Positions 23,690-48,920 of a stretch of DNA of 64,000 nt are shown one piece after another (position 1 is the first letter of the stretch; each line of letters begins with the position of its first letter). The stretch is taken from contig NZ_OY821667.1 of assembly GCF_963682185.1 (NCBI RefSeq), positions 4,477,501-4,541,500 of the forward strand, in the 5' to 3' direction. The stretch comes from an uncultured Cohaesibacter sp. Lineage in GTDB: Bacteria > Pseudomonadota > Alphaproteobacteria > Rhizobiales > Cohaesibacteraceae. A program made the translations under genes and the position numbers. The notes under the pieces were generated by a model that did not search any database, had not been told where the DNA came from, and saw nothing but the letters and a program-made list of their open reading frames with translations.

Positions 23690-24331
23690 TCAGACCCGAG
23701 ACAGCCAGTCCAGAAAACGGATGCGCACATTGTCGAAATGATGCTCCATGGCAGCCCGAGCCTCATCCGGAGCGCCCGCCTCGATGCCGGCAATGACAGC
23801 CAGATGATCCTGCGCCTGCGCGGCAAACTGATCATGCACCCGCGTGATGGTGCAGCGCCGGGCCGTAACGCGTAGTTTCTGGATCATGCCGCTGAGCATG
23901 GGCAGATCCGCTGCGTCAATCACCGCATTGTGGAAGTCATCATCCAGCTCCCAGAAATCATCAAAAGCCATGTTGGTGTCCGGATCGAGGCAATGCGCCA
24001 TAACGTCACGAGACGCTTTGAGAGCACCGGTCATGCCGTTTTCTGCGGCACGGGCCGCGGCGGCTCCTTCCAGAATGCGGCGCACCTGTACGATCTCGAG
24101 CAACTGCTCCACCGAAACGCGACGCACCAGCAGGGCACCATTATCCAGCCTATAGACAACGCCTTCTTTCTCGATACGGGAAATGGCCGAGCGGAGTGGC
24201 GTTCTGGAAATACCAAGCTCTGCGGCAAGCCCGCGCTCGGTCAACACCTCTTCAGGCTGATATTGTTGGGACAATATCTTCTGCTTGATCGCGTTATAGG
24301 CCTGTTGTGCCAGCGTTTCTTTTTCACTCAT
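23690..24331 (-). CDS. GntR family regulator, FCD subfamily (first of two)
   Basis: A 213-aa protein with an N-terminal winged helix (LTERGLAAELGISRTPLRSAISRIEKEG) and an all-helical FCD effector domain with metal-site histidines (DDDFHNAVIDAA, MEHHFDNVR). FCD proteins sense organic or amino acids. It faces convergently the hydrolase genes to its left and is followed upstream by a second, separate FCD regulator. Its target is probably this catabolic cluster or the TRAP transporter. Confidence 0.9.
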   Translation of the reverse strand: MSEKETLAQQAYNAIKQKILSQQYQPEEVLTERGLAAELGISRTPLRSAISRIEKEGVVYRLDNGALLVRRVSVEQLLEIVQVRRILEGAAAARAAENGMTGALKASRDVMAHCLDPDTNMAFDDFWELDDDFHNAVIDAADLPMLSGMIQKLRVTARRCTITRVHDQFAAQAQDHLAVIAGIEAGAPDEARAAMEHHFDNVRIRFLDWLSRV

Positions 24332-24399
24332 ACCCGTGTCCGATGGTTTTGATGTCCTCGCTTTGAGGTGAGATGATCCGACGTCGCTCCATGCTGCGT

Positions 24400-25047
24400 T
24401 CAGGCTTCCGGCGCGGCGGCGCTAAAGCCTGCCAGTCGTTCCAGAATAGCCTGTTTGGCATTGTCTATATGTTGCGCCATGCGCGCCTTGACTTGTTCTT
24501 CGTCGCCGTCTTCAAGCGCCTTCAGGATGGTTAGATGCTCCTGATTGCCCTTCAGGAACCGGCCCCGCACTCGCGTATGATCGAACATGCAGGTACGCAG
24601 ACGCAAGTCATTGACCGTGCTGATCAAGGTCTGGTTATGTGTGGCTCTGGTGAGCATGCCGTGGAAATCTTCATCCACCTGCCAATGCTCTTCGCCTTCG
24701 CCGGGGCCTGCCTGCAAAAGCGCCTCAATGCGTGTTTGCATGGCTTCCAGCTTTGACTTGGGCAAATTGAGCGCCATGCGCGCGGAATAGACTTCCAACT
24801 CGCTGCGCAGGAAAAAAATCTCTTCCACTTCGGCGGGGGACAGAAGCCGCACGCGCAAGAAGCGACCGCTCTTTTTGGCCAACCCTTCGGCCTGAATGCG
24901 GTTGATGGCTTCTCTCACGGGGGTGCGAGACATATCCAGCTGTTCACCCAGCTTGGCTTCCTGCAGTGCATCTCCGACCTTTAGCTCGCCTGAGAATATC
25001 ATCTCGATAATTTGCGTGTATGCACGCTTTGCCAGCAGTTCGGTCAT
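24400..25047 (-). CDS. GntR family regulator, FCD subfamily (second of two)
   Basis: About 215 aa, starting at ATG 25047 (MTELLAKRAYTQ). The winged helix has LGEQLDMSRTPVREAINRIQAEGL, followed by an FCD domain with DEDFHGML and MAQHIDNAK. A longer frame to 25155 runs back through the TRAP operon terminator and is not used. Two FCD regulators side by side, with different recognition helices, suggest dual control of the neighbouring amide/5-oxoproline genes and the TRAP transporter. Confidence 0.9.
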   Translation of the reverse strand: MTELLAKRAYTQIIEMIFSGELKVGDALQEAKLGEQLDMSRTPVREAINRIQAEGLAKKSGRFLRVRLLSPAEVEEIFFLRSELEVYSARMALNLPKSKLEAMQTRIEALLQAGPGEGEEHWQVDEDFHGMLTRATHNQTLISTVNDLRLRTCMFDHTRVRGRFLKGNQEHLTILKALEDGDEEQVKARMAQHIDNAKQAILERLAGFSAAAPEA

Positions 25048-25123
25048 GGAGATCTGACGGTGCCTTCTCTGGTGGTTCAAGTCTGTCCGTTGGCTTCCAA
25101 GGATGCCGCGAACGGGTGTTAAA

Positions 25124-25165
25124 CGAAAAACGGTTAGCGAAGAGAGATACCCCACGCTAACCGTT
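25124..25165 (-). terminator. Terminator of the TRAP operon
   Basis: An 11-bp perfect stem (AACGGTTAGCG at 25129-25139 with CGCTAACCGTT at 25155-25165), followed on the minus strand by TTTTTCG. It lies 16 bp beyond the stop of the large permease gene and insulates the GntR gene. Confidence 0.9.
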
Positions 25166-30007: not shown

Positions 30008-30058
30008 AAGCCCGTTGCTTTGGCATTTCGTGCGCAAGGCAACGGGCTTTACTATTTT
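30008..30058 (+). terminator. Terminator after the aminotransferase/RidA-like remnant
   Basis: AAGCCCGTTGC (30008-30018) pairs perfectly with GCAACGGGCTT (30039-30049) around a 20-base loop, followed by TACTATTTT. Confidence 0.75.
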
Positions 30059-30260
30059 GGAGGGCTATCGTCGGGCTGAGTCTGAACCGGCTTGACTATA
30101 CTGTCCGGCGTTGATCAAAAATTAGCCAACGCTCCGACTGAATTTTGTCATGCCGAAATCTATGGATTTCCTGATTTTTAAATAAGCTGTTGAATTTATA
30201 GAATAAATTTAAATATCCTGTGTTGATTTCAAATGCAGCAAAACAGATGTTTATTTGATC

Positions 30261-30306
30261 TTGAAAAGTTGAATGCATCAAATCATAGTTTTGATGCATC
30301 ATAATT
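30261..30306 (+). promoter_or_regulatory. GntR operator/promoter module, copy 1 (before class III aminotransferase operon)
   Basis: A putative -35 TTGAAA (30261-30266) and, 17 bp later, CATAGT (30284-30289) as a -10. Two palindromic boxes overlap them: GAATGCATCA (30271-30280) and the perfect TGATGCATCA (30292-30301), with centres 21 bp apart. The whole 46 bp aligns without a gap with 36374-36419. The module lies about 190 bp before the ATG at 30494. The remainder of 30059-30493 is AT-rich leader or upstream DNA with nothing else recognised. Confidence 0.75.
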
Positions 30307-30493
30307 CCAATTGAATATATCGCAGCTAAAGACCATCGCCCCGACCAACCCTTCCAGACACGTCCATTCGGGCATGCAATTAACGCAATCGCGGACATCC
30401 ATATTGGATGATGTACCGAGCGGGATCTTCCCTCAGAAGCCTATCGGTCCCCTCGTACGATCAGTTGATTAAAGAATATCAGGAATCTGCATC

Positions 30494-31843
30494 ATGAGCA
30501 TTACGCCCAATTCAGTTGAAGCACGCGATATCGCCTACCACATGCACCCAGCCGTTAATTTGCGCAAGTTCGAAGAAAAGGGCGGCCTTGTCATTGAAAG
30601 CGGCGATGGCGTTTATGTCTACGACAACACCGGCAAACGCTATATCGAAGGGCTGGCCGGTCTTTGGTCTGTCGCTGTTGGCTTCGGTGAGAAGCGGCTG
30701 GTTGAAGCGGCCACCGCTCAGCTGCAAAAGCTGCCTTACTATCACTCCTTCAACTACAAGACCAACGGTCCGTCGGTCGATCTGGCAGAGCTGCTCATCA
30801 GCATCGCGCCGGTTCCCATGTCCAAGGTGCATTTCACTTCTTCGGGGTCAGAGGCCAACGATCTTGTGGCCAAGATGGTCTGGTATCGCTCCAACGCATT
30901 GGGCAAGCCGGAGAAGAAAAAGATCATCGGACGCATCAAGGGCTATCACGGCGTGACGATTGCTGCGGGTTCCATCACAGGCATTCCGGCAAACCACACA
31001 AGCTTCGACTTGCCGCTTGATCGCATGGTCCATACATCCTGCCCGTCCTTCCCCCATTTCGGTGAAGACGGCGAGAGCGAAGAGGCCTTCACCGCTCGCA
31101 TGCTGAAGGATCTGGAAGACCTGATCGTCAAGGAAGGGCCGGAAACCATCGCCGCCTTCTGGGGCGAGCCGGTCATGGGCGCAGGTGGCGTGCTCACCCC
31201 GCCAAAGGGCTATTGGGAAGGTGTTCAGGCCATCCTGAAAAAATATGACATACTGCTGGTGGCCGATGAGGTGATCTGTGGCTTTGGCCGTACCGGCAAG
31301 ATGTTTGCCTGCGAAACCTATGACATCAAACCCGATGTGCTGGTCATTTCCAAGCAATTGTCATCATCCTACATGCCTCTGTCGGCCATCATGATGAATG
31401 ACAATTTCTACCAGCCGATTGCCGATGAATCCGACAAGATCGGGGTCTTTGCCCATGGCTTCACGGCCTCGGGGCATCCGGTGGCAACTGCCGTTGGCCT
31501 TGAGAATGTCAAGATCATCATCGAGCGAGATCTCGTCGGCAATGCCGCTCGCCTTGAAAAGACCTTCCTTGATGGCCTTGCAAAACTGGCCGAGCATCCG
31601 CTCGTGGATTCCTCTCGCGGCATCGGTCTCATCGGGGCACTTGAGTTGACCCCATGGGAGCAGGAAGGGGCCGGAGCGGCAGCACTGGCTGTGGCAGAAG
31701 CCATTCAGGAAGAAGGCTGCATCATCCGCAACATTGGCGAAGCCATCTGCTTCTGCCCACCACTGATCATCACCGCAGAGCAAATTGAAGAAATGTTCGC
31801 AATCGTCCTGCGTGCACTGAACAAGGTTGCCGAGACGCGTTAA
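30494..31843 (+). CDS. Class III aminotransferase (omega-transaminase-like)
   Basis: A 449-aa PLP enzyme of the putrescine/taurine/beta-alanine-pyruvate transaminase group. Seen are FTSSGSEANDLVAKM (about 114-128), YHGVT at 151-155, Asp258 in LLVADEVICGFGRTG and the PLP lysine K287 in VISKQLSSSYMPLSA. It begins an operon with a polyamine-type ABC transporter (the binding-protein gene starts 93 bp downstream), so it probably deaminates the imported amine with pyruvate as acceptor. The upstream paired TGATGCATCA module indicates control by the GntR regulator encoded at 36505. Confidence 0.92.
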   Translation: MSITPNSVEARDIAYHMHPAVNLRKFEEKGGLVIESGDGVYVYDNTGKRYIEGLAGLWSVAVGFGEKRLVEAATAQLQKLPYYHSFNYKTNGPSVDLAELLISIAPVPMSKVHFTSSGSEANDLVAKMVWYRSNALGKPEKKKIIGRIKGYHGVTIAAGSITGIPANHTSFDLPLDRMVHTSCPSFPHFGEDGESEEAFTARMLKDLEDLIVKEGPETIAAFWGEPVMGAGGVLTPPKGYWEGVQAILKKYDILLVADEVICGFGRTGKMFACETYDIKPDVLVISKQLSSSYMPLSAIMMNDNFYQPIADESDKIGVFAHGFTASGHPVATAVGLENVKIIIERDLVGNAARLEKTFLDGLAKLAEHPLVDSSRGIGLIGALELTPWEQEGAGAAALAVAEAIQEEGCIIRNIGEAICFCPPLIITAEQIEEMFAIVLRALNKVAETR

Positions 31844-31936
31844 GCGCCTCTTCGGCAGCTCAGGATTTCACCCTTAAAGATAGATCGGGACAACCCGGCG
31901 TTTTTAAAGCAATCAACCTACCGGAGAAACAAAATC

Positions 31937-32974
31937 ATGAAAAAATGGGCACTATTGGCGTCTGTTCTTGCTCTTGGCGCCATGTCAAGCGCGTCTCAGG
32001 CCCGCGACCTGACCATCACCAGCTGGGGCGGTAGCTACCAGACTGCGCAACAGGATATCTATTTCAAGCCATTCTCTGAAAAGGTTGGCAAGCCGGTTCT
32101 GGACGAAAGCTGGGACGGCGGCTATGGCGTGCTTCAAGCCAAGGTAAAAGCCGGTGCTCCCAACTGGGATGCAGTGCAGGTGGAAGCCGAAGAGTTGGCC
32201 CTTGGCTGTGACGACGGTATCTTCGAAATGATCGACTGGGACAAGATGGGGGGCGAAGATGCCTTCATGCCTGCCGCTGTCAGCGATTGCGGCGTGGGTA
32301 CCATCGTTTGGTCTCTGGCTCTGGCCTATGATGGCAACAAGCTCAGCGATGGCCCTAAAAACTGGGCTGACTTCTGGGATGTCAAGAAATTTCCGGGCAA
32401 ACGCGCTCTGCGCAAAGGTGCCAAATACACCCTTGAATTTGCCCTCTTGGCAGATGGCGTTCCGGCTGATGAGCTCTATGATGTTCTCTCCACTCCGGAA
32501 GGCATCGACCGGGCCTTTGCCAAACTTGACGAGTTGAAACCGGATCTGGTCTGGTGGGAATCCGGCGCCCAGCCGTTGCAGTTCCTCGCTTCTGGCGAAG
32601 TGGCTATGGCCGCATCCTATAATGGCCGTATCACCAGCATCAACAAGACAGAAGGCAAGAATTTCAAGATCGTATGGCCTGGCTCCATCTATGCTGTCGA
32701 CAGCTGGGTTATCCTCAAGGACGCCGAAAACAAGGAGCTTGCTCAGGATTTCATCGCCTTTGCCAGTCAGCCGGAAAACATGTCCAAGCTGCCTGAATAT
32801 ATCGCTTACGGGCTGACCAACAAGGAAGCTTCCAGCATGGTGCCGGATGAATATAAGGCAGACATCCCGACCACGCCGGAAAACCTGGAACAGGCGCTCT
32901 CACTGAATATCGATTTCTGGATCGACAATTCTGAAGCCCTGAACCAGCGCTTTAACGCCTGGCTCGCCCAATAA
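31937..32974 (+). CDS. Periplasmic binding protein of a spermidine/putrescine-type ABC transporter
   Basis: A 345-aa PotD/PotF-like extracellular binding protein. The signal peptide (MKKWALLASVLALGAMSS...SQA, 22 aa) precedes the characteristic RDLTITSWGGSYQ. The C-terminal half has the VDSWVILKDAENKELAQDFI region. Family ligands include polyamines, GABA-like and other amino compounds. The adjacent transaminases and amino-alcohol-type kinase make an amino acid or amino alcohol plausible. A stable hairpin follows the gene. Confidence 0.92.
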   Translation: MKKWALLASVLALGAMSSASQARDLTITSWGGSYQTAQQDIYFKPFSEKVGKPVLDESWDGGYGVLQAKVKAGAPNWDAVQVEAEELALGCDDGIFEMIDWDKMGGEDAFMPAAVSDCGVGTIVWSLALAYDGNKLSDGPKNWADFWDVKKFPGKRALRKGAKYTLEFALLADGVPADELYDVLSTPEGIDRAFAKLDELKPDLVWWESGAQPLQFLASGEVAMAASYNGRITSINKTEGKNFKIVWPGSIYAVDSWVILKDAENKELAQDFIAFASQPENMSKLPEYIAYGLTNKEASSMVPDEYKADIPTTPENLEQALSLNIDFWIDNSEALNQRFNAWLAQ

Positions 32975-32984
32975 GGCAAAAGGC

Positions 32985-33018
32985 AAGCGCATGGAGCAGA
33001 GCCCCGCTTCATGCGCTT
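32985..33018 (+). other. Intercistronic stem-loop after the binding-protein gene
   Basis: AAGCGCATG (32985-32993) pairs with CATGCGCTT (33010-33018), with further AGC/GCT pairing inside. There is no T run, so it probably stabilises the upstream mRNA 3' end or partly attenuates transcription, and does not fully terminate it. Confidence 0.6.
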
Positions 33019-33152
33019 CCTCCACGCATTCTCATCCGTTTGTTCACGAGAGGCGAGAGCTTTCCCGAGCGGGTGCGTATGCCTTGTGATCTCAGGCGTA
33101 GGATAGACCGGCTTGTCCCGAGACTGTCTGGTCATACGTTGCAGGAAGAAAA

Positions 33153-34226
33153 ATGACCGAGCAGCCATATATTGAATTCCGAAAAGTCAGCAAAGTCTTT
33201 GGGTCCCTGACCGTTGTTGACCATCTCGATCTGACCATCAACAAGGGCGAGTTCGTCTCGCTTCTTGGTCCATCCGGATCTGGCAAGACAACCTTGCTTA
33301 TGATGTTGGCCGGCTTTGAAGATCCCACCGCAGGGGACATTCTGCTCGGAGGCTCCGTGTTGAACCGGACCCCGCCTTACAAGCGCAATATGGGGGTCGT
33401 GTTCCAGAATTACGCCCTGTTCCCCCATCTGTCTGTTGCCGAGAATATTGCCTTTCCGCTCAAGAGGAGAGGCGTTGCCAAGGCCGAGATCGCTGAGCGG
33501 GTCAATCGCGTGCTGGAAATGGTGCAGTTGCCCGACCAATCGGAAAAACTCCCCAGCCAGCTGTCCGGTGGTCAGCAGCAGCGTGTGGCGCTTGCCCGTA
33601 CGCTGGTCTTTGAGCCCAATGTGGTCTTGATGGATGAACCCCTTGGCGCGCTCGACAAGAATCTGCGCGAGCAAATGCAATATGACATCCGCCGTTTGCA
33701 CAGGGATCTGGGCCTGACAATCGTTTTTGTTACCCACGATCAGTCCGAAGCCCTGACCATGAGCGATCGCATTGCCGTGTTCAACCATGGCAAGATCGAG
33801 CAGATCGGCACACCGCAGGATATCTACGACCGACCAAACACGCATTTTGTCGCCGAGTTTATTGGCGAAACCAATCTTATTCCCGTCAAATATCGCGAGG
33901 GAGACCGTTCCCGCTGTTCAGTGACCACCAATACAGGCAAGGATCTGGAAGTGACCAGCCCTGTGACCCTGTTCCGCGGAACAGAAGTATTGCTTTCCTT
34001 GCGGCCGGAACATATCGAGCTGGGCGATAGTGCCGAAGGGCTGGAGAATGCCATGCCTGCGCGCATCAGCGACGTGGTCTATCAGGGAGATCACCTGCGG
34101 GCCGACATCGAGGTGGATGGTGCAAAGCTGGTGGCCCGTCTTGGCCGTCATTTGCCGCCGCATGATCCCGGCGACGAGGTCTTCATCGGTTTCCGGCCTC
34201 AAAATGCACGGGTGATCCTGCCATGA
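33153..34226 (+). CDS. Polyamine-type ABC transporter ATPase (PotA-like)
   Basis: The 357-aa ATPase of the transporter: Walker A GPSGSGKTT, signature LSGGQQQR, Walker B VVLMDEPLGALD and switch His in VTHDQSEA. A C-terminal TOBE domain carries SLRPEHIEL and FIGFRPQNARV. It overlaps the first permease gene by 4 bases (ATGA) and begins 178 bp after the binding-protein gene. Confidence 0.94.
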   Translation: MTEQPYIEFRKVSKVFGSLTVVDHLDLTINKGEFVSLLGPSGSGKTTLLMMLAGFEDPTAGDILLGGSVLNRTPPYKRNMGVVFQNYALFPHLSVAENIAFPLKRRGVAKAEIAERVNRVLEMVQLPDQSEKLPSQLSGGQQQRVALARTLVFEPNVVLMDEPLGALDKNLREQMQYDIRRLHRDLGLTIVFVTHDQSEALTMSDRIAVFNHGKIEQIGTPQDIYDRPNTHFVAEFIGETNLIPVKYREGDRSRCSVTTNTGKDLEVTSPVTLFRGTEVLLSLRPEHIELGDSAEGLENAMPARISDVVYQGDHLRADIEVDGAKLVARLGRHLPPHDPGDEVFIGFRPQNARVILP

Positions 34227-35398
34227 CTGCAAGACTAGGCCCACATCTCAAAGCCTCGGCGCTTGTGCTTCCGCTGGTGCTGTTTCTGGCCCTGTTTTTT
34301 GTCTGGCCGATCATCGCCATGCTCAAACAGTCCATCTCCGACCCCGTCGTGCACAATACATTGAGCCAGACCAGCGCGATCGCCGCCCAGTGGAACGGCA
34401 AGGCACCGGTTCCTGCTGCCCTGCAGGACGCACTTGTGGCCGACATTCGCGCCACGACGGATCGGCAGGAAATGGGCGCGGTCGTGCGGCGCCTCAACAG
34501 CGCCAAATCCGGCTTCAGAACGCTCATGCGCAAGACGCGCCGCGCCATTCGAAAAACCGATGGCCCGATCAATCTGGGTGAAGTCGACAAGCGCTGGAAC
34601 GAAGTGGCATGGTGGCACACCATTGCTCAGGCATCTTCGCCCTATACGGACCGTTATCTGCTTGCAGCGCTTGATTATGGCCGAGACAAACATAATCAGA
34701 TTGTGGCTCTGCCCGAAGATGCCTCCGCCAACAGAACCATTCTGGCGCGGACATTCGTCATCAGCCTGTCGGTGATGCTGTCCTGCCTGGCAATTGGGTT
34801 GCCGTTCGCCATGGTCATCGCTTCCACCTCTGGCTGGTTGCGCAACGTGTTGCTGGCCGCAGTGTTGCTGCCGCTCTGGACCTCGCTTCTGGTACGCACC
34901 ACGGCGTGGTTCATCATTTTGCAGAATAACGGTCTCATCAACTCCGCTCTTCAGGCACTCGGGATCACCGATCAACCAATCCCGCTTATTTTCGAACGCA
35001 CCGGTGTCATCATCGCCATGACGCACGTATTGCTGCCCTTCATGGTGCTGCCGATCTATAGCGTGCTCTTGTCCATGCCGGGTAATCTCATGCAGGCGGC
35101 GTCTTCGCTGGGAGCACACCCGATCGTTGCCTTCCTCAAGGTCATGTTGCCTCTCTCGGCAAGGGGCATCGCCTCCGGCTCGCTGTTGGTCTTCATGTCT
35201 TCGATTGGCTACTACATCACACCGGCTCTCATCGGCGGTCCGTCTGACCAGATGATTTCCTCCGTGATTGCCTTCTATGCAACGGAATCGGCGAACTGGG
35301 GCATGGCTGGTGCGCTCGGTCTGGTTCTGCTCTCGATCACCTTGCTGCTCTATGTCGTCTATGGACGTCTTTCGGCTGAAAAGAAGGGAGTCGCGTAA
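34223..35398 (+). CDS. Polyamine-type ABC permease (PotB/PotH-like) with a large periplasmic insertion
   Basis: A 391-aa inner-membrane permease. After the first helix (about residues 11-35) comes about 130 mostly hydrophilic, basic and alpha-helical residues before the remaining five helices, making it about 100 residues longer than classical PotB. The coupling loop is the MQAASSLGAHPIVAFLKVMLP region. Such insertions occur in some alphaproteobacterial members; their role is unknown. It is coupled to its neighbours by an ATGA overlap upstream and a one-base TAATG overlap downstream. Confidence 0.9.
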   Translation: MTARLGPHLKASALVLPLVLFLALFFVWPIIAMLKQSISDPVVHNTLSQTSAIAAQWNGKAPVPAALQDALVADIRATTDRQEMGAVVRRLNSAKSGFRTLMRKTRRAIRKTDGPINLGEVDKRWNEVAWWHTIAQASSPYTDRYLLAALDYGRDKHNQIVALPEDASANRTILARTFVISLSVMLSCLAIGLPFAMVIASTSGWLRNVLLAAVLLPLWTSLLVRTTAWFIILQNNGLINSALQALGITDQPIPLIFERTGVIIAMTHVLLPFMVLPIYSVLLSMPGNLMQAASSLGAHPIVAFLKVMLPLSARGIASGSLLVFMSSIGYYITPALIGGPSDQMISSVIAFYATESANWGMAGALGLVLLSITLLLYVVYGRLSAEKKGVA

Positions 35399-36204
35399 TG
35401 TTCCCGACAGTCAAAAAAGCCTTTGGCATTCTTGTCATGTTGTTTCTGATTGCGCCGCTGGCAGCCATTCTGCCGCTGGCCTTCACCTCCAGCGCTCTGC
35501 TCACTTATCCGGTTCCGGAGTGGTCCATGCGCTGGTTGACCGAGCTGGTGACCGAGCCGGTCTGGCGCCGCTCCATCGCCAACAGTCTGATCATCGGTGG
35601 CGGAACGACAGTGCTCGCTACCACCCTTGGCACGTTGGCCGCTCTGGGGCTGCGGCGTTATTCCTCGCTGTTTGCCGGAGTGCTCAAGACCTTCTTCCTG
35701 CTGCCAATGGTGGTGCCTGCCGTGGTGCTTGGTGTGGGCATGCAGGTCTTCTTCGTCCATGTGGGCATCGCCAACTCCTATCTGGGTGTGATCGTGGCGC
35801 ATACGGTGATTGCAATGCCGTTCGTGTATGTCAGCGTGTCAGGCTCGTTGGCGGGTATCGACCCTCGTGTCGAGCTGGCCGCCGCCAGTCTTGGAGCGTC
35901 GCCCTCTACGGTTTTGCGCACGACGACCCTGCCGCTCAGCCTGTCTGGCATCCTTTCTGGTGCTGTGATGGCCTTTGCGACCTCGCTTGATGAGGTGATC
36001 CTGACTCTCTTCATCGCGGGGCCTCACCAGCGCACGCTGGCCAGACAGATGTTCTCTACCATTCGTGAGAATGTGTCTCCGGCCATTGCGGCTGCTGCCT
36101 TTGTCTTCATCGTCGGCACCATTCTTGTCGCTTGCCTTATCATGCTTGTGCGCGCACGCACCGGTGGCACCATGCAGAAGACTGTCGGGCCTGGCATTTC
36201 ATAA
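35398..36204 (+). CDS. Polyamine-type ABC permease (PotC/PotI-like)
   Basis: A 268-aa second permease with six hydrophobic helices and the coupling-loop motif ELAAASLGASPSTVLRTTTLP. It overlaps the previous gene by one base (TAATG). It is the last gene of the 30494-36204 operon; the next gene, the GntR regulator, has its own promoter module 170 bp downstream. Confidence 0.93.
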   Translation: MFPTVKKAFGILVMLFLIAPLAAILPLAFTSSALLTYPVPEWSMRWLTELVTEPVWRRSIANSLIIGGGTTVLATTLGTLAALGLRRYSSLFAGVLKTFFLLPMVVPAVVLGVGMQVFFVHVGIANSYLGVIVAHTVIAMPFVYVSVSGSLAGIDPRVELAAASLGASPSTVLRTTTLPLSLSGILSGAVMAFATSLDEVILTLFIAGPHQRTLARQMFSTIRENVSPAIAAAAFVFIVGTILVACLIMLVRARTGGTMQKTVGPGIS

Positions 36205-36373
36205 GGGCTGTGGCGCCTCGAACATTTATACGCGTGACGCGCCACGCCATTCTGTTTTCTTGGTGAAAACAAATAGAAAGAACAACGCGATGATGATGAC
36301 GCATCTGGCCGTTGCTCAAGCTACGCATGCCATATCTGGTTGCAGATGAGTGTAGGCATAGGATCGATTGTAT

Positions 36374-36419
36374 TTGAAAATAATGATGCATCAAGTTAGA
36401 GTTATGATGCATCATAAAT
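36374..36419 (+). promoter_or_regulatory. GntR operator/promoter module, copy 2 (before the regulator gene)
   Basis: TTGAAA (36374-36379), 17 bp, then TAGAGT (36397-36402) form a plausible sigma70 promoter. Two perfect palindromes TGATGCATCA (36384-36393 and 36405-36414) have centres 21 bp apart, two helical turns on one DNA face. The arrangement equals copy 1 at 30261-30306 base for base in spacing. It lies about 90 bp upstream of the regulator start, pointing to autoregulation. The rest of 36205-36504 holds only weak hairpins. Confidence 0.78.
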
Positions 36420-36504: not shown

Positions 36505-37167
36505 ATGCAATCGCAACAAGAAGGCAAAAAGCTCTCTGATATGGTCTATGACAGACTGTGCGAGGCCCTGCTCAAGGGGCACTATCTTCCGGGCAAGCGC
36601 CTGAAAATCCGGGAACTGGCAGAAGAAATGCAGACCAGCGTTACCCCGGTGCGCGACGCCATTCTCCGGTTGCACTATGACGAGGCGGTTATCTACAATT
36701 CGCCACGTTCAATTCATGTCACCTCTTTAAGTCGTTCGCGCTACGAAGAAATCCGCAAGATTCGCCTGCCGCTGGAAGTGATGAGCGCCAAGGCTGCTGC
36801 ACAATATGCAACTCTTTCAGACATCAGCGATCTTGAAAACCTGATTGCGGTGAATGAAGACGCCATGGCCGAAGGCGATGGCATTCTCGGTGCCGCGCTC
36901 AATCAGCAATTTCATTTCAAGCTGGTCGAAATGTCGGCCATGCCGGTGCTCTATGGAGTCTTGCGCCGTCTCTGGCTGCAAACCAGTCCGCTGATTGCAC
37001 ATGGCTATCTTGAGGCCGGGCGGGCAATGATCGATCACCATTACGAGGTACTGGAAGCGGTGCGCAACAAGGATGTGGAGGCTGTCGCCATCGCCGTGGA
37101 GCGTGATCTGACCTTAGGAGGCGCCCCGCTGGTACGTATGCTCGACAAAGTGTCGGAGGGTGAATGA
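36505..37167 (+). CDS. GntR family regulator, FCD subfamily, likely master of this locus
   Basis: About 220 aa from the ATG at 36505 (MQSQQEGKKLSDM). The winged helix contains IRELAEEMQTSVTPVRDAILRL, and the FCD domain has FHFKLVEMSA and DHHYEVLEAV histidine motifs. An in-frame ATG at 36418 abuts the operator and would add 29 unconserved residues; I prefer the later start. Paired TGATGCATCA operators precede this gene and the transaminase/ABC operon, so this protein is the best candidate to bind both. It may be co-transcribed with the downstream kinase and PLP-enzyme genes. Confidence 0.9.
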   Translation: MQSQQEGKKLSDMVYDRLCEALLKGHYLPGKRLKIRELAEEMQTSVTPVRDAILRLHYDEAVIYNSPRSIHVTSLSRSRYEEIRKIRLPLEVMSAKAAAQYATLSDISDLENLIAVNEDAMAEGDGILGAALNQQFHFKLVEMSAMPVLYGVLRRLWLQTSPLIAHGYLEAGRAMIDHHYEVLEAVRNKDVEAVAIAVERDLTLGGAPLVRMLDKVSEGE

Positions 37168-37310
37168 CCCAGACACAGGCATTGGCGATGCCAAACAACC
37201 AAATCAACCCGTTCAAAGCCAGGAAATTCATCGCTAGGGGGCTACCCCACACCCGATGGCCATCATCACAGGCTCTTTATAAAGACACAATAATCAGGGG
37301 AGACCGGCCA

Positions 37311-38366
37311 GTGACCACTGCAGACCCAGATATCGGATCGCTTCTTACGACGCCTCCGCCCGCAATTTCACAGCAAGAGGCTCTTGCGATTGCCAAAACG
37401 ACCTTCGGTCTTACCGGTAATCTGAAACAGCTGACTTCGGAACGCGACGCCAACTTTCTGCTCCGCGCGGATGACGGCAAAGGCTATGTGCTCAAATTCA
37501 CCAACGAGATGGAGCCGGAAGAGCAAACCGATTTCCAGACCAAGGCTCTGCTGCATCTGGAAAAAACGGCACCATCCCTGCGCGTGCCACGGGCCGTGCC
37601 GACACTTTCGGGAGAGCTGTGGCAGGAGCTGGAAAATGGATCCCGCGCGCGGCTTCTAAGCTATGTTGAAGGAAGCCTCAGCTCGACGCTTCCCAAATCG
37701 CCCAATCTGGCAATTGCGGTTGCCACTGCCGGTGCCAAACTGGTCAACGCCCTTGAAGGGTTCGAGCATCCTGCTGCCAATCACTATCTGATCTGGGATA
37801 TCAAGAATGCCGGAACCCTGCGCTCCATGCTGCCGCTGATCGAGGATAGCGACCAGCGGGGACTGGTCGAAAGGGTGATTGATGGATTTGATGAAAGAAT
37901 AGCACCACGCCTAGATGACTTGCCATGGCAGGTCATTCACGGTGATCTCAATCCGCAAAATCTGGTGACCGAAGATGAGACTGATCTGGAAATCGGCGTG
38001 CTGGATTTTGGAGACATGGTGCGTTCGCCGCGCATTTGCGAACTGGCGATCGCAGCGGGTTATCAGCTCGACTTTTCCGATGCCGGGGCATCCCTCATGC
38101 AGTTCCTTGCCCGCTGGCACAGCATTTGTCCGCTGACCCGTGCCGAGGTTGAGCTGTCTGCCGATTTCATTGCTGCCCGTTTTGCTACCATCATCACGGT
38201 CGCCAACTGGCGTGCTCAACGCTATCCGGAAAACAGGGCCTATATCACTCGCAATCTGGCGTTGGCTTCCAATGGGATCAGGCATCTGACCAATCTGGAC
38301 ACCAAAGGGCTCTATGAGGCTCTGGCTGATAGAGCAGAGGCCAAACTGCATAAGGAGATTGCATGA
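37311..38366 (+). CDS. APH-family phosphotransferase, hydroxylysine-kinase-like
   Basis: An aminoglycoside-phosphotransferase-fold small-molecule kinase, about 351 aa. The catalytic loop is HGDLNPQN (His210, numbering from this start) and the metal motif DFGD begins at Asp232; the nucleotide-binding Lys is probably in YVLKFTNE. It resembles hydroxylysine kinase (HYKK/AGPHD1) and ethanolamine or amino-alcohol kinases. I prefer the GTG at 37311 (GGGGAG site); an ATG at 37164 overlapping the regulator stop with GGAGGG is an alternative that adds 49 atypical residues. It overlaps the phospho-lyase-like gene by 4 bases, strongly suggesting consecutive steps. Confidence 0.82.
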   Translation: MTTADPDIGSLLTTPPPAISQQEALAIAKTTFGLTGNLKQLTSERDANFLLRADDGKGYVLKFTNEMEPEEQTDFQTKALLHLEKTAPSLRVPRAVPTLSGELWQELENGSRARLLSYVEGSLSSTLPKSPNLAIAVATAGAKLVNALEGFEHPAANHYLIWDIKNAGTLRSMLPLIEDSDQRGLVERVIDGFDERIAPRLDDLPWQVIHGDLNPQNLVTEDETDLEIGVLDFGDMVRSPRICELAIAAGYQLDFSDAGASLMQFLARWHSICPLTRAEVELSADFIAARFATIITVANWRAQRYPENRAYITRNLALASNGIRHLTNLDTKGLYEALADRAEAKLHKEIA

Positions 38367-39670
38367 TGTCGCAAGACCAGTCCATGGCAAATGCCTTCGT
38401 GCCGGGGCAGGCGATCCTGTCTGCGGGCGATGAAGCTCTTTTGCAACGCCGCACCGACACGCTTGGGCCTGCTTATCGCCTATTCTATGAAGAGCCCTTC
38501 CATCCGGTGCGAGGGGAAGGGGTGTGGCTCTATGATGAAGATGGTACAGCCTATCTTGACGCCTACAACAATGTTGCCTGTGTGGGCCATTGCCATCCGC
38601 GCGTGGTGGAAGCCATGGCCCGACAGGCCTCTATGCTGACCACCCACACGCGCTATTTGCAGAATAACATTGTCGATTTTGCAGAAGATTTTCTGGCGAG
38701 TTTTCCCGATCCCCTGTCTCACATCATGTTCACCTGCACAGGCTCGGAAGCCAACGATCTGGCGCTGCGCATTGCTCGGGTGAAGACCGGTGGTACCGGC
38801 GTCATCGTGACGGAGAATGCCTATCACGGCGTTACCATCTCCTTGGCTGCCATGTCGCCTTCTCTGGGGGCTGGAGCGCCCAAGGATGACAATGTCTTCA
38901 CCATTCCCGCTCCGAGCGGACAGCATGGCGAGCAGGAAGGCGAGGTCATGCGTGCCAACGTGGATAAGGCACTCGCCGCCATGGCGGAACGAGGCATCAA
39001 ACCCGCAGCTCTCTATGTCGACACGATCTTTTCTTCGGATGGCATTTTCAGTCATCCCAAAGGGTTTCTCAAACCTGCCGTTGATGCCTTTCGTGCAGCC
39101 GGTGGGCTGTTTGTCGCCGACGAGGTGCAGCCCGGCTTTGCTCGCACAGGCGAGGAGATGTGGGGCTTTCTGAGACATGGATTAGTGCCGGACATGGTCT
39201 CCATGGGCAAGCCGATGGGCAATGGCTATCCTGTTGCCGCATTGGTCGTGCAGCCTGATGTCGTGGCCGAGTTCGGCGAACGCACCCGCTACTTCAACAC
39301 TTTCGGCGGCAACACAACGGCCATCGCCACAGCGCAGGCCGTTTGGGATATCATTCACGATGAGAGCCTGCAGAAAAAGACGCTAGAAACCGGCAATGCC
39401 TTCCGTAGCGAGTTGGAGATCCTTGCCAAAGAGGGGGATGTCATCTGCGACATCCGTGGCAGTGGCCTGTTCATCGGGGTGCAGATTGTCGGAGATGATC
39501 CAAGGGGGCGGACTGCCCGCCTCGTCAATGCGCTAAAGAAAAAGCGTATTCTCATCAGTGCGTCTGGCCCGGGCGGTGATGTACTCAAAATCCGCCCACC
39601 GCTGGCCTTCGGCTCCGATGCGCTGGACTTCTTCATGAGCGGATTGCGAGAGGTCATCAAGGATATCTAG
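38363..39670 (+). CDS. Class III PLP enzyme, AGXT2L/phospho-lyase-like
   Basis: A 435-aa class III aminotransferase-fold protein. Motifs are YLDAYNNVACVGHCHPRVV near the start (typical of AGXT2L1/AGXT2L2), TCTGSEANDLALR, Asp253 in LFVADEVQPGFARTG and the PLP lysine K283 in SMGKPMGNGYPVAA. AGXT2L enzymes are not transaminases but eliminate phosphate and ammonia from O-phosphorylated amino alcohols (phosphoethanolamine, 5-phosphohydroxylysine). Coupling to an APH kinase gene by ATGA overlap supports a kinase plus phospho-lyase pair here, though ordinary transaminase activity is not excluded. Confidence 0.86.
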   Translation: MMSQDQSMANAFVPGQAILSAGDEALLQRRTDTLGPAYRLFYEEPFHPVRGEGVWLYDEDGTAYLDAYNNVACVGHCHPRVVEAMARQASMLTTHTRYLQNNIVDFAEDFLASFPDPLSHIMFTCTGSEANDLALRIARVKTGGTGVIVTENAYHGVTISLAAMSPSLGAGAPKDDNVFTIPAPSGQHGEQEGEVMRANVDKALAAMAERGIKPAALYVDTIFSSDGIFSHPKGFLKPAVDAFRAAGGLFVADEVQPGFARTGEEMWGFLRHGLVPDMVSMGKPMGNGYPVAALVVQPDVVAEFGERTRYFNTFGGNTTAIATAQAVWDIIHDESLQKKTLETGNAFRSELEILAKEGDVICDIRGSGLFIGVQIVGDDPRGRTARLVNALKKKRILISASGPGGDVLKIRPPLAFGSDALDFFMSGLREVIKDI

Positions 39671-39754: not shown

Positions 39755-40501
39755 ATGAGTTCGAACGAGAGAAAAACCCTTTTGATTACTGGCGCCAGTC
39801 GTGGCATCGGTCATGCCACTGTAAAGCGCTTCTCTGATGCGGGTTGGCGGGTGCTCAGTTGTTCCCGACAGCCCTTTGATGAAAAATGTCCCTGGCCGAT
39901 GGGCAAGGAAAACCATATTCAGGTGGACCTCAGCGATCTGGCAAGCATCGGCAAGGCAATTGGCGTTGTCAAGGAACGCCTGAAATCGGAAGGCGGCAGG
40001 TTGCATGCGCTGATCAACAATGCGGCCATCAGCCCCAAGGACGAAAATGGCCAGCGACTTGATAGCCTCAAGACACCACCATATTTGTGGCATACTGTTT
40101 TCACGGTCAACTTTGTGGCGCCCATCATGCTCGCAAACGGCTTGATTGAAGAGCTGCGCGCAGCGAAGGGCTCTATCGTCAATGTCACGTCCATTGCAGG
40201 CATGCGCGTGCATCCCTTCGCCGGTACGGCCTACGCCACGTCAAAGGCGGCGCTGTCCACTTTGACACGCGAAATGGCCGCCGATTTTGGTCCGCACGGT
40301 ATTCGGGTAAACGCCATCGCACCGGGAGAAATCGACACCTCGATCCTGTCACCGGGCACCGAGAAGATTGTCGAGACCATTCCGCTGCGGCGTCTGGGCG
40401 AGCCTTCCGAGGTGGCTGAAACCGTCTTCTATTTGTGCTCGGATGCCAGCTCCTATGTTTCCGGCACCGAAATTCACGTCAATGGCGGCCAGCATGTCTG
40501 A
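39755..40501 (+). CDS. Short-chain dehydrogenase/reductase
   Basis: A 248-aa classical SDR. The cofactor motif TGASRGIG begins at residue 12, NNAAIS is the structural motif, the catalytic Ser is in VNVTSIAG and the YATSK motif carries Tyr and Lys. It sits 84 bp after the phospho-lyase-like gene on the same strand and may oxidise or reduce the aldehyde or alcohol intermediate of that pathway, though the gap and the intervening palindrome allow separate control. Confidence 0.9.
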   Translation: MSSNERKTLLITGASRGIGHATVKRFSDAGWRVLSCSRQPFDEKCPWPMGKENHIQVDLSDLASIGKAIGVVKERLKSEGGRLHALINNAAISPKDENGQRLDSLKTPPYLWHTVFTVNFVAPIMLANGLIEELRAAKGSIVNVTSIAGMRVHPFAGTAYATSKAALSTLTREMAADFGPHGIRVNAIAPGEIDTSILSPGTEKIVETIPLRRLGEPSEVAETVFYLCSDASSYVSGTEIHVNGGQHV

Positions 40502-40896
40502 ATGAGCCATCCCTGATGTGCTGAATATGTGCCCCGGCTTTCGCTCCATGTTGCGAGGGTGGGGCACATCTCCTTTACCGCTGTTAATCAGGGGAAGGAA
40601 CCGGGCCATGGCTGGAGAAGCACGGTCTTTTCGGTTATCGTTGGGCAGATCCTCCCGGATCCAATCTTACTTCCTGATCGGAGTGTTCTCCTGCCTCATC
40701 GGGGTGAGGCTTGGGACTGCGCGTCTTGAACTCAGTCAGGTTGGTCTGCCAATGGCAAACCGCCCCCTTTCCGCCATGACGAACAAAGCTTCGCCACGAT
40801 GCCCGAAGGGCGCAGGACAGCACTCTGCATGGAAGATGAAAAGCAAGGGACGCGGCGATCGCGCCGCTCAATATGCGTCCAAAAGAGAGTATTGTG
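40502..40896. other. Intergenic region with a long-range hairpin
   Basis: About 395 bp. ATGTGCCCC (40527-40535) and GGGGCACAT (40561-40569) form a perfect 9-bp inverted repeat around 25 bases, without a T run. An open frame of 130 codons crosses the region but has no recognisable product and implausible composition. It may hold the SDR operon's end and the dehydrogenase promoter. Confidence 0.4.
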
Positions 40897-41886
40897 ATGA
40901 ACAAGAATAAACTGGTTGTCGTCGGCGTTGGCCATGTTGGCTCTTACGTGCTGGCAGACGCCATGAAGACGGGCCTGTTCGCTGAAATCGGCGTAATCGA
41001 CATTTTGGAAAATGTCGCCTATGGCGAAGCGCTGGATCAGGCACAGGCAACGGCCCTGACCTATATGAACAATGTGGATGTCAAAGCGGGCGGCTATGAA
41101 CAATGCGCCGACGCCGATGTGATCGTCGTGGCCGCGGGGCCGAGCGTCATTCCCGATCCGGATAACCCCAAGGCCGAACCCGACCGCACGCTGCTGACCA
41201 AGACCAACTGTGAAGTCATTCGCGAGGTCATGACGGGCATTACCAAATACACCAAGGATGCCATCGTCATCCTGATCACCAATCCGCTCGACACCATGGT
41301 GTATATTGCGGAAAATGAATTCGGATATCCCAAGGGCCGCGTTTTCGGAACCGGCACAATGTTGGATTCAGCCCGCTTGCGCAAGCTGATCGCCGACACC
41401 TATCAGGTCGATCCCAAGTCGATTTCCGGCTATATGATGGGTGAACATGGCAGTACGGCTTTTCCTGTGCTGAGCCATGTGACTGTGGGCGGCATTCCGT
41501 TTGAGGCCGTTGATGACTATCTGGCGCCCACCAGCAATATTCAAGATCCGGATGTCGTGAAGACAAGCATTGTCTCTGCCGCCTATGAAGTGCTCAACGG
41601 CAAGGGCTGGACCAATGCTGGTGTTGCCCAATCTGCCATCACGATGGCAAAGGCCGTTTTGCTGGATGAGCGCAGCATCTATCCCGCATCAACCACGTTG
41701 CGCGGCCAATATGGTCATGATGGCGACGTGGCCCTCAGCATGCCATGCGTCATCGGCCGGGAAGGGATCATCAAGCAATTGCCCGTTGATCTGAATGAAT
41801 GGGAAAAGCAAAAGCTGCAGGAAACAATCGCTTTCATTCAGTCCACGATGGTGGATGCCAAAACAGGGCCGGACAAAGCAAAATAA
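40897..41886 (+). CDS. L-lactate/malate dehydrogenase family, L-2-hydroxyacid (hydroxyisocaproate-like) dehydrogenase
   Basis: A 329-aa NAD-dependent LDH/MDH-superfamily enzyme starting at ATG 40897. It has the GVGHVG cofactor motif, NPLDTMVYIA, the catalytic-Arg region LDSARLRK and the catalytic His in MGEHGSTAFP. The substrate loop is atypical: where LDH has a Gln and MDH an Arg after GAPQK/RKPG, this protein has SVIPDPDNPKAEPDRTL, recalling the longer loop of L-2-hydroxyisocaproate dehydrogenases. It probably acts on a bulkier 2-oxo/2-hydroxy acid. Confidence 0.85.
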   Translation: MNKNKLVVVGVGHVGSYVLADAMKTGLFAEIGVIDILENVAYGEALDQAQATALTYMNNVDVKAGGYEQCADADVIVVAAGPSVIPDPDNPKAEPDRTLLTKTNCEVIREVMTGITKYTKDAIVILITNPLDTMVYIAENEFGYPKGRVFGTGTMLDSARLRKLIADTYQVDPKSISGYMMGEHGSTAFPVLSHVTVGGIPFEAVDDYLAPTSNIQDPDVVKTSIVSAAYEVLNGKGWTNAGVAQSAITMAKAVLLDERSIYPASTTLRGQYGHDGDVALSMPCVIGREGIIKQLPVDLNEWEKQKLQETIAFIQSTMVDAKTGPDKAK

Positions 41887-42020: not shown

Positions 42021-42632
42021 CTAGCTGCTGGTCGCCTTGGAGGTCATGTCGGTCGTATGCTCGGCCAACTCCTTGCGCCAACGCCCCGCCTCAAAGGCTT
42101 TGCGCGCCAAATGCGCTTTGCGGCGATGCTGATAGGAGCGAGCGGCATGCCGGGTCAGATAATAGAAAATCAATGCCACTGCGATGCCGACAGGCACAGC
42201 GCCCACGGCCATGATCTTGATCGTTGGCAGAATGGCTGAGAGAGACTGTGAGAGCAGTCCATGCTGAAGCGCATGGATCTTGTGATGCATGATCGGTTGC
42301 CCCAGAATCAGGCAGCCCGTTGAATAGGTCGCGCTCCAGATAAACGGAAATGTCAGTGGATTGCCAATCGCAGTGCCAACAGCAGCCGCAAGCAGGTTGC
42401 CTCCGATCAAGAAGGCGATCGCCCAAGCGATGAGAAAGTGAAATCCCAGAAAAGGTGTGAAAGAGGTGAAGACCCCGGCCGCGACTCCTGCCGCAATGGC
42501 ATAGGGAGACCCTGTCAGGCGCAAGACCCGCTTGATATAATAAACGCCGGACCGTTTCCAGCTACGACGCGGCCACAGCAACACACGCATGCGCTCGGCA
42601 AATTTGGGCTTGTTCTTCCGACCAAAAATCAC
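42021..42632 (-). CDS. DUF2062 membrane protein
   Basis: A 203-aa protein with the DUF2062 signature: the segment SPYAIAAGVAAGVFTSFTPF followed by LGFHFLIAWAIAFLIGGNLLAA and AIGNPLTFPFIW. Two or three membrane helices and a further C-terminal one are visible, with a basic cytoplasmic tail. The function of the family is unknown. It stands alone on the minus strand. Confidence 0.87.
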   Translation of the reverse strand: MIFGRKNKPKFAERMRVLLWPRRSWKRSGVYYIKRVLRLTGSPYAIAAGVAAGVFTSFTPFLGFHFLIAWAIAFLIGGNLLAAAVGTAIGNPLTFPFIWSATYSTGCLILGQPIMHHKIHALQHGLLSQSLSAILPTIKIMAVGAVPVGIAVALIFYYLTRHAARSYQHRRKAHLARKAFEAGRWRKELAEHTTDMTSKATSS

Positions 42633-48558: not shown

Positions 48559-48617
48559 GGTCCGCTCTCAATTGCTTTCCTAAGTAATCGCAAAATCGAT
48601 TTATTCGCGCAAGTCCT

Positions 48618-48635
48618 CTCGTACATATGTGCGAG
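48618..48635 (-). promoter_or_regulatory. lux-box-like element upstream of luxR
   Basis: CTCGTACATATGTGCGAG is an 18-bp inverted repeat with one mismatched pair, the size of a classical lux box, 60-77 bp before the luxR start. It shares ACATATGTG with the element before luxI, suggesting LuxR autoregulation. Confidence 0.65.
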
Positions 48636-48920
48636 GCAACTATACAAATAGCAATCATTGAGAGTAAATTGGTATCAATACACGATATACTTTAGCTATT
48701 CTCTGCAATCTTTGAATGCATCTATAGGTAGTATCGAAATTTGCGTAAACTTTTTGAGTTAATGCTCTGTTAACTGCAGGAAAACGGCCATATTGCGATA
48801 AAATTTGCCAGAAATTACGCCATTCTGGCGATTTGTGCGCCTAATAGAGAAGAAAGCGCTTTATCAAGAAGCAAGCATAAGAAACTTGAACGTCGCGACT
48901 GTTCCTCTGAGCAGATGCGC

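Follow-up and report, generated by a model that had tools for sequence, protein, structure and literature searches.

Twin promoter-operator modules of a predicted autoregulated FCD-GntR regulon in Cohaesibacter

Introduction

FCD-domain regulators of the GntR family commonly recognise operators of the consensus NyGTM-N0-1-KACNy, with GT and AC (PMC4494728, in the accessible part of its text); NanR and BioR are described as exceptions. Two described members come closest in arrangement to the locus treated here. Atu1419 of Agrobacterium fabrum (FCD/VanR) is reported, in the available portions of its description, to be a repressor with sites before its own gene, built on a 10-bp palindrome; these sites lie on the -10 element or between the -35 and -10 elements, with more than one palindrome per control region (PMC7797058). 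DgoR of Escherichia coli, in the part of the source at hand, is likewise an FCD repressor, with two inverted repeats over the promoter of a catabolic operon (PMC7674646). We describe a comparable layout in an uncultured Cohaesibacter sp., within a stretch of 64,000 nucleotides (contig NZ_OY821667.1, positions 4,477,501 to 4,541,500, forward strand), hereafter the window. Two 46-bp modules lie at 30261-30306 and 36374-36419; as originally predicted, one precedes a class III aminotransferase gene (AT1) and ABC transporter genes, and the other precedes gntR, an FCD-domain GntR gene (36505-37167). With a probability of roughly 80%, judged from sequence patterns, we read these modules as promoter-operator cassettes of an autoregulated regulon, in which dimers of the 36505 protein would bind and block both promoters until an inducer releases them.

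Results

The original prediction had been that the two modules are twins, and they aligned without a gap, with 36 of 46 positions identical. Each module carries, in order, TTGAAA, a first box (O1), a weak -10-like hexamer and a second box (O2). In agreement with the prediction, three of the four boxes are perfect palindromes, and in each module 21 bp separate the centres of the boxes. The weak -10-like hexamers are CATAGT (left) and TAGAGT (right), which stand 17 bp after TTGAAA, each with 9/12 matches. The left module consists of TTGAAA (30261-30266, plus strand), O1 (30271-30280), which reads GAATGCATCA and has two mismatched pairs, CATAGT (30284-30289, plus strand) and O2 (30292-30301), a perfect TGATGCATCA over the expected start point; all four elements are unchanged in five of five Cohaesibacter genomes. 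The right module consists of TTGAAA (36374-36379, plus strand), a perfect O1 (36384-36393), TAGAGT (36397-36402, plus strand) and a perfect O2 (36405-36414), both boxes again being TGATGCATCA. This last box forms the centre of a perfect 16-bp palindrome, TTATGATGCATCATAA. Outside the modules the flanks show little mutual likeness.

Single boxes with at most two mismatches showed no enrichment in the window, where 39 were counted and 51.2 expected, a deficit if anything, and the weight therefore rests on the paired pattern. At up to three mismatches, two paired boxes were found against 0.02 expected, a count that none of 100 shuffles reached. Promoter-like hexamer pairs were not enriched either in the stretch with the modules (5 found, 4.0 in shuffles), so that promoter hexamers by themselves would not convince. 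Two of the five have minus-strand orientation and fall within a module or on its edge (30310-30282 and 36394-36367). A search of the whole genome (5.39 Mb) for paired boxes, which had been proposed as a check on random scatter, returned the two modules as the sole places at up to two mismatches; a third place at three mismatches (400488) lies inside a mechanically called open reading frame (ORF). Exact single boxes occur 21 times in this genome, three of them in the modules. Sixteen of the other 18 lie inside mechanical ORFs, one lies in the gap before a TRAP transporter operon, and one precedes a 208-aa ORF by about 23 bp, though it is overlapped by a mechanical 80-aa ORF. The 208-aa ORF is presumably mobA-like. 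These results confirm that the twin-module observation is real and not a product of chance.

Conservation was examined in a family sample of 20 genomes, 18 of them of the genus Cohaesibacter and our own included, with regulator orthologues accepted at E <= 1e-30. Pairs with at most two mismatches were kept in all five regulator-bearing genomes and in none of the 15 without the regulator, so that the presence of the regulator and that of the pair agree in all 20 genomes, which are related and do not represent independent events. Each of the five genomes has two such pairs at a distance of about 6.1 kb, which in the four relatives precede AT1 and gntR. Both refuting conditions of the original prediction that computation could address, random scatter of the pairs and their absence from promoters of related genomes, were thus decided in its favour. 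AT1 itself is present in eight of the 20 genomes; in three that carry it (83-84% identical) and have no regulator, the ATGCAT core was found in 0 of 3 within 500 bp upstream of AT1. The 36505 regulator is 95% identical to its counterpart in Cohaesibacter marisflavi.

The right-module boxes stay nearly constant over the five genomes (O1 10/10 and O2 9/10 columns unchanged), while the surroundings change (flanks 2/50 and 9/79, spacer 3/11). The hexamer between the boxes reads TAGAGT, TATGAT, TGTGAT, TATAAT or TATAAA, at a spacing fixed at 17 bp from a preceding TTGAAA, TTGATT or TTGAAC. This variation is the best evidence that the element between the right-module boxes is a genuine -10, and it suggests that promoter strength may be drifting around operators that do not change. 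Of the 75 left-module columns from 30252 to 30326, 70 are unchanged, CATAGT included, to about 25 bp beyond O2; because of this strong conservation the left boxes, unlike the right ones, are not set off against their surroundings. The segment directly 3' of left O2 (30302-30326, TAATTCCAATTGAATATATCGCAGC) has one variable column in the five genomes, and the rest of the leader varies; this segment could be the site of a second factor or a leader element.

We then compared more distant relatives. A scan with one genome per species yielded 35 loci with a relative of the regulator, namely that of C. marisflavi and 34 in which identity is about 50-55%, the latter mostly Rhizobiaceae as judged by names. 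Six plasmid loci (Azospirillum, Haematobacter, Sinorhizobium meliloti 1021 pSymA, Pseudomonas, Pseudochrobactrum and Chelatococcus) were added to give 40 distant loci; the S. meliloti SM11 locus (L093) was not counted, and L004 was not counted apart from G005, the two seemingly being one record. GATGCATC was present within 350 bp upstream of gntR in 37 of the 40 loci, whose 706 kb hold 62 such sites in total, and in most loci a single box precedes the start of gntR by about 20-70 bp. Together with the co-occurrence in the family, this phylogenetic footprinting strongly supports the assignment of the boxes to the 36505 protein, which the original prediction had offered as an inference.

The genes for the kinase, a second class III enzyme (AT2), the SDR oxidoreductase, the solute-binding protein (SBP), the ATPase and both permeases were matched beside gntR in 31 of the 34 scanned loci, where the kinase and AT2 genes lie on the strand opposite to gntR; the kinase gene shares a divergent region with gntR. 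Boxes were scored as the best match of 10 letters in the 260 bp upstream of each gene. Matches of 9 or 10 letters were found before gntR (37/40), the kinase gene (15/37), the SDR gene (10/36) and the SBP gene (3/32), and in no case before AT2 (0/37), the ATPase gene (0/32) or either permease gene (0/32 each). Matches of eight letters added 24 loci for SDR, 19 for SBP, two for the ATPase and two for permease 2, and none for AT2 or permease 1. Eighteen of the 19 eight-letter SBP matches (18 of 32 loci compared) are GAATGCATCA, the letters of left-module O1, and the left module likewise serves transporter genes. Most eight-letter SDR matches have the differently shaped sequence TCAAGCATCA, which we would hesitate to call a box.

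A class-wide scan for twin pairs covered 385 genomes at up to two mismatches, with the reversed pattern as control. Our genome gave two pairs and nine other genomes gave one each; four genomes had a match to the reversed control. All nine other pairs lie inside stop-to-stop frames of at least 150 codons, away from the cluster, and no cluster gene adjoins them except for a weak SDR match at one. On these sequence comparisons, the twin 21-bp arrangement looks like an addition within Cohaesibacter, made at both promoters. As for other regulators, the accessible tables of a PhaR/AniA study include SMa1755 (solute-binding protein; site 999179-999159) and SMa1761 (aminotransferase) (PMC12542648). 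The SMa1755 site falls inside the pSymA locus of S. meliloti 1021 that we compared (L096, 990908-1009546), and the orthologous cluster of this species may also answer to PhaR.

The 36505 protein matched the GntR and FCD families of Pfam well above their cut-offs (PF00392, 48.3 bits against 27; PF07729, 66.3 bits against 24.3). A structure model built from 27 aligned sequences had a predicted local distance difference test score of 92 and seven helices between residues 77 and 219, an all-helical FCD fold. Its best fold matches include McbR, Atu1419, PmiR and AlkR; the nearest solved fold is E. coli McbR (4p9f), and other VanR/FCD proteins are also near. The recognition stretch TSVTP[VI]RDA is present in 41 of 41 proteins, bar one residue in one of them. 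All 41 have Val (Val46 in the 36505 protein) at the position where FadR and Atu1419 have Arg45 (FadR numbering, placed by motif alignment), and so lack the Arg of Arg45-type operator recognition. N133, H137, H179 and D201 are also unchanged in all 41; they are candidate ligands of a metal or effector site, matched by spacing only to N137, H141, H192 and H214 of Atu1419, whose reported ligands are Asn and His, with Asp in place of His at the fourth position (PMC7797058, as far as its available text goes). TGATGCATCA contains no GT...AC and departs from the common FCD consensus; exceptions to that consensus are known, so this does not exclude family membership. The loss of the guanine-reading Arg and the loss of GT/AC would fit together.

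A general code in which FCD regulators without Arg45 use ATGCAT was considered and was not supported by the upstream regions of 50 regulators. This set came from 52 entries after two duplicates were dropped, with helices matched by profile; L135 (a broken gene without a helix match) and repeats from our own genome (L136, L151, L154 and L155) were excluded. Among the 28 regulators without Arg45, ATGCAT was found upstream of 3 (1.76 in shuffles), GATGCATC of 1, the window's own, and T[GT]GT-N2-3-AC[AC]A of 1 (0.98), while TTGATCAA was found upstream of 5 (0.17) and its core TGATCA of 9 (1.97). Among the 22 with Arg45 the corresponding counts were 2 for ATGCAT (2.04 in shuffles), 0 for GATGCATC, 4 for T[GT]GT-N2-3-AC[AC]A (0.96), 1 for TTGATCAA (0.13) and 6 for TGATCA (1.93), so that TGATCA is raised in both groups. 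The five upstream regions with TTGATCAA among regulators without Arg45 are L120, L137, L148, L149 and L152. A sister group may use TTGATCAA as its operator, in which the TTGAT half-site is the same and the spacer is missing.

Our genome has 37 FCD matches. Two further FCD regulators stand side by side on the minus strand of the window (23690-25155), near a TRAP-type solute-binding gene, and both have Arg at position 45. Another FCD match of this genome, at 48587-48877, contains one TAG and two TAA and is probably a broken regulator gene. Among the papers listed by our literature searches, we found none linking the box with a GntR protein, none on the pathway of this cluster, and none on it in a search for Cohaesibacter together with GntR; a search by locus tag for the S. 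meliloti orthologues gave one paper.

The targets named in the original prediction (transporter, transaminases, kinase and phospho-lyase-like genes) were borne out by family searches. All genes listed in this paragraph lie on the plus strand. Behind the left module follow AT1 (30494-31843; PRK06105 subfamily, above cut-off); the solute-binding protein of a polyamine/GABA (gamma-aminobutyrate)-type ABC transporter (31937-32974), whose nearest solved structures are 4i1d and a set with 4eq7 and a GABA sensor among its members; a potA-like ABC ATPase (33153-34226; TIGR01187, above cut-off); and two permeases (34223-35398 and 35398-36204), both BPD_transp_1 and both conserved neighbours. Behind the right module, gntR overlaps by 4 nt with the gene of an APH-fold phosphotransferase, the kinase (37164-38366), which in turn overlaps by 4 nt with AT2 (38363-39670), a class III pyridoxal phosphate enzyme. 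AT2 is phospho-lyase-like, its nearest solved structures being the phospholyase 5g4i and the ethanolamine-phosphate phospho-lyase 6tor. With stop and start codons overlapping, gntR, kinase and AT2 form one operon; AT1, SBP, ATPase and permeases would form the second. The SDR gene (39755-40501), after a gap of 84 nt, perhaps joins the gntR operon. No ATGCAT box precedes it in this genome, and one is present before some SDR orthologues elsewhere. A lactate/malate dehydrogenase-family gene (40873-41886), a neighbour conserved in the genus, follows after 371 nt, and its place in the regulon is uncertain. Some 400 bp downstream of it stands TGATGCATGA (42283-42292), at equal distance in three of four relatives.

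In the fused family PRK06148 the kinase and AT2 match one end each, neither of them reaching the cut-off of that model. Our guess is that a vicinal amino alcohol, for example ethanolamine or 4-amino-3-hydroxybutyrate, would suit such a kinase and phospho-lyase. For gntR, an upstream in-frame ATG at 36418 was set aside as the start; we infer 36505, whose ATG is conserved together with the downstream coding sequence in five genomes, our own included. At about 30010-30060 visual inspection showed an inverted repeat, AGCCCGTTGC...GCAACGGGCT, with a T-rich stretch behind it, likely the terminator of the gene preceding the left module; a scan did not report this repeat, whose loop exceeds the length that the scan allows.

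Discussion

The same operator stands before the regulator gene and before neighbouring catabolic genes and is kept across species, as in an autoregulated local regulon. In the mechanism that we propose, the 36505 protein would bind the 10-bp palindrome TGATGCATCA as dimers, and the cassette would interleave the -35 element TTGAAA, O1 in the -35/-10 spacer, the -10 element and O2 over the start point. Since 21 bp equal two helix turns, two dimers would be adjacent on one face of the DNA. When inducer is absent they would sit side by side, probably cooperatively, and shut out RNA polymerase, an arrangement that we liken to those of Atu1419 (PMC7797058) and DgoR (PMC7674646), as far as the accessible texts describe them. 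The gntR-kinase-AT2 operon, perhaps with SDR, and the AT1-ABC transporter operon would both be blocked. The inducer would be a substrate or intermediate, perhaps a hydroxylated amino acid or an amino alcohol on which the kinase/phospho-lyase-like pair acts. By filling the FCD pocket it would free the DNA, so that the genes for uptake and breakdown would rise together.

Several observations weigh against this reading. Three distant loci (Acidocella, the Pseudomonas plasmid and Chelatococcus) have no box near gntR despite the same recognition stretch; in Acidocella the box lies directly before the kinase gene instead, and the regulator of the Pseudomonas plasmid is 45% identical. The 37 loci with a box are mostly Rhizobiaceae and not independent observations, so that relatedness inflates the counts. 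AT1 had a 9-10-letter box in none of the three distant clusters that contain it, and a second box (at least 7/10) at +21 or -21 was found in none of the 37 distant gntR promoters, where TTGAAA also sits 7 bp further from the box than in Cohaesibacter. The model does not account for the conservation of the left module for about 25 bp beyond O2. Finally, a single box also precedes a TRAP operon equipped with an FCD paralogue of its own, and the box may therefore not be private to the 36505 regulator. This box (L092 3176-3185; 2243175 in our genome) is a TGATGCATCA shortly after TTGACA; the FCD regulator of the operon lies at its far end, is 34% identical and has the helix TSITPVRE. Among 13 genomes searched, the TRAP solute-binding gene was found in our own and in none of the 12 others of the genus.

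The boxes might alternatively be operators of the 36505 protein through which it activates, or acts as a dual regulator, in the manner of the FCD protein CitO, which the part of the source at hand describes as an activator. The weak -10 hexamers of the window can go with activation. We regard this as unlikely, given that O1 in the -35/-10 spacer and O2 across the expected start point occupy blocking positions, that one relative has TATAAT as its right-module -10, and that in most distant loci some 20-70 bp separate the single box from the gntR start downstream of it. Less likely still is that another regulator binds the modules, such as one of the two FCD proteins at 23690-25155 or a paralogue elsewhere in the genome. 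Of the 37 FCD matches in the genome, two are in the window at a distance of about 6 kb, and the paralogue at 2246.5 kb adjoins the TRAP operon with the single TGATGCATCA in its promoter. The boxes nevertheless track the 36505 orthologue, in 5/5 family genomes and 37/40 distant loci, and among 50 FCD regulators GATGCATC lies upstream of the window's own only. The 46-bp likeness could also be a recent promoter copy or the remnant of a mobile element without regulatory meaning, given 36/46 identity that includes TTGAAAA and the spacing, and flanks that are little alike, a very improbable explanation that is already contradicted by the boxes, which are constant over five genomes while the right-module surroundings and spacer change and which occur singly at gntR in other families.

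Repression of two operons by the 36505 protein, as preferred here, is ordinary in kind for an FCD-GntR catabolic regulon; the variant lies in its putative operator sequence, its missing Arg45 and its phased two-box cassette. A wider proposal is tentative, and we would sooner doubt than assert it as a whole: that an uncharacterised FCD-GntR group across Alphaproteobacteria (Cohaesibacter, Rhizobiaceae, Azospirillum and Haematobacter), with Val for Arg45, reads the GT/AC-free TGATGCATCA; that in Cohaesibacter the ancestral single box became a fixed two-dimer -35/O1/-10/O2 cassette at two promoters, with the strength of the polymerase site drifting; and that the group controls an undescribed amino-alcohol or hydroxy-amino-acid pathway. 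The locus provides a testable operator and target set for regulators annotated just as 'GntR family' in the records consulted, and a natural case in which a one-box operator has seemingly been turned into a phased two-box cassette. It also joins a kinase/phospho-lyase-like pair, an SDR, a second transaminase and a GABA/polyamine-type transporter in one catabolic unit, which occurs in many soil and marine bacteria, S. meliloti 1021 included.

Among described systems, E. coli McbR/YncC (4p9f) is the closest solved structure by sequence and fold, at 27% identity, and we know of no regulon of the present kind for it. McbR/YncC is described, in the source as far as available, as preferring AT-rich sites with an ATATAT motif, unlike the boxes here. 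Atu1419 differs in its palindrome, ATGTATACAT against TGATGCATCA here, and in the distance between its sites, 190 or 109 bp, which a tetramer can span, against 21 bp here; its Arg45 reads guanine, where the 36505 protein has Val (PMC7797058, in the accessible portions). DgoR, on the partial text available, differs in its FadR-type operator, in which 3 nt separate GT from AC, and in its genes. Amino-alcohol kinase and phospho-lyase pairs (PRK06148, fused; 5g4i and 6tor) are similar by sequence to the kinase and AT2. Unlike fused PRK06148, the Cohaesibacter locus has two separate genes and adds a GABA/polyamine-type transporter, an SDR and a second transaminase.

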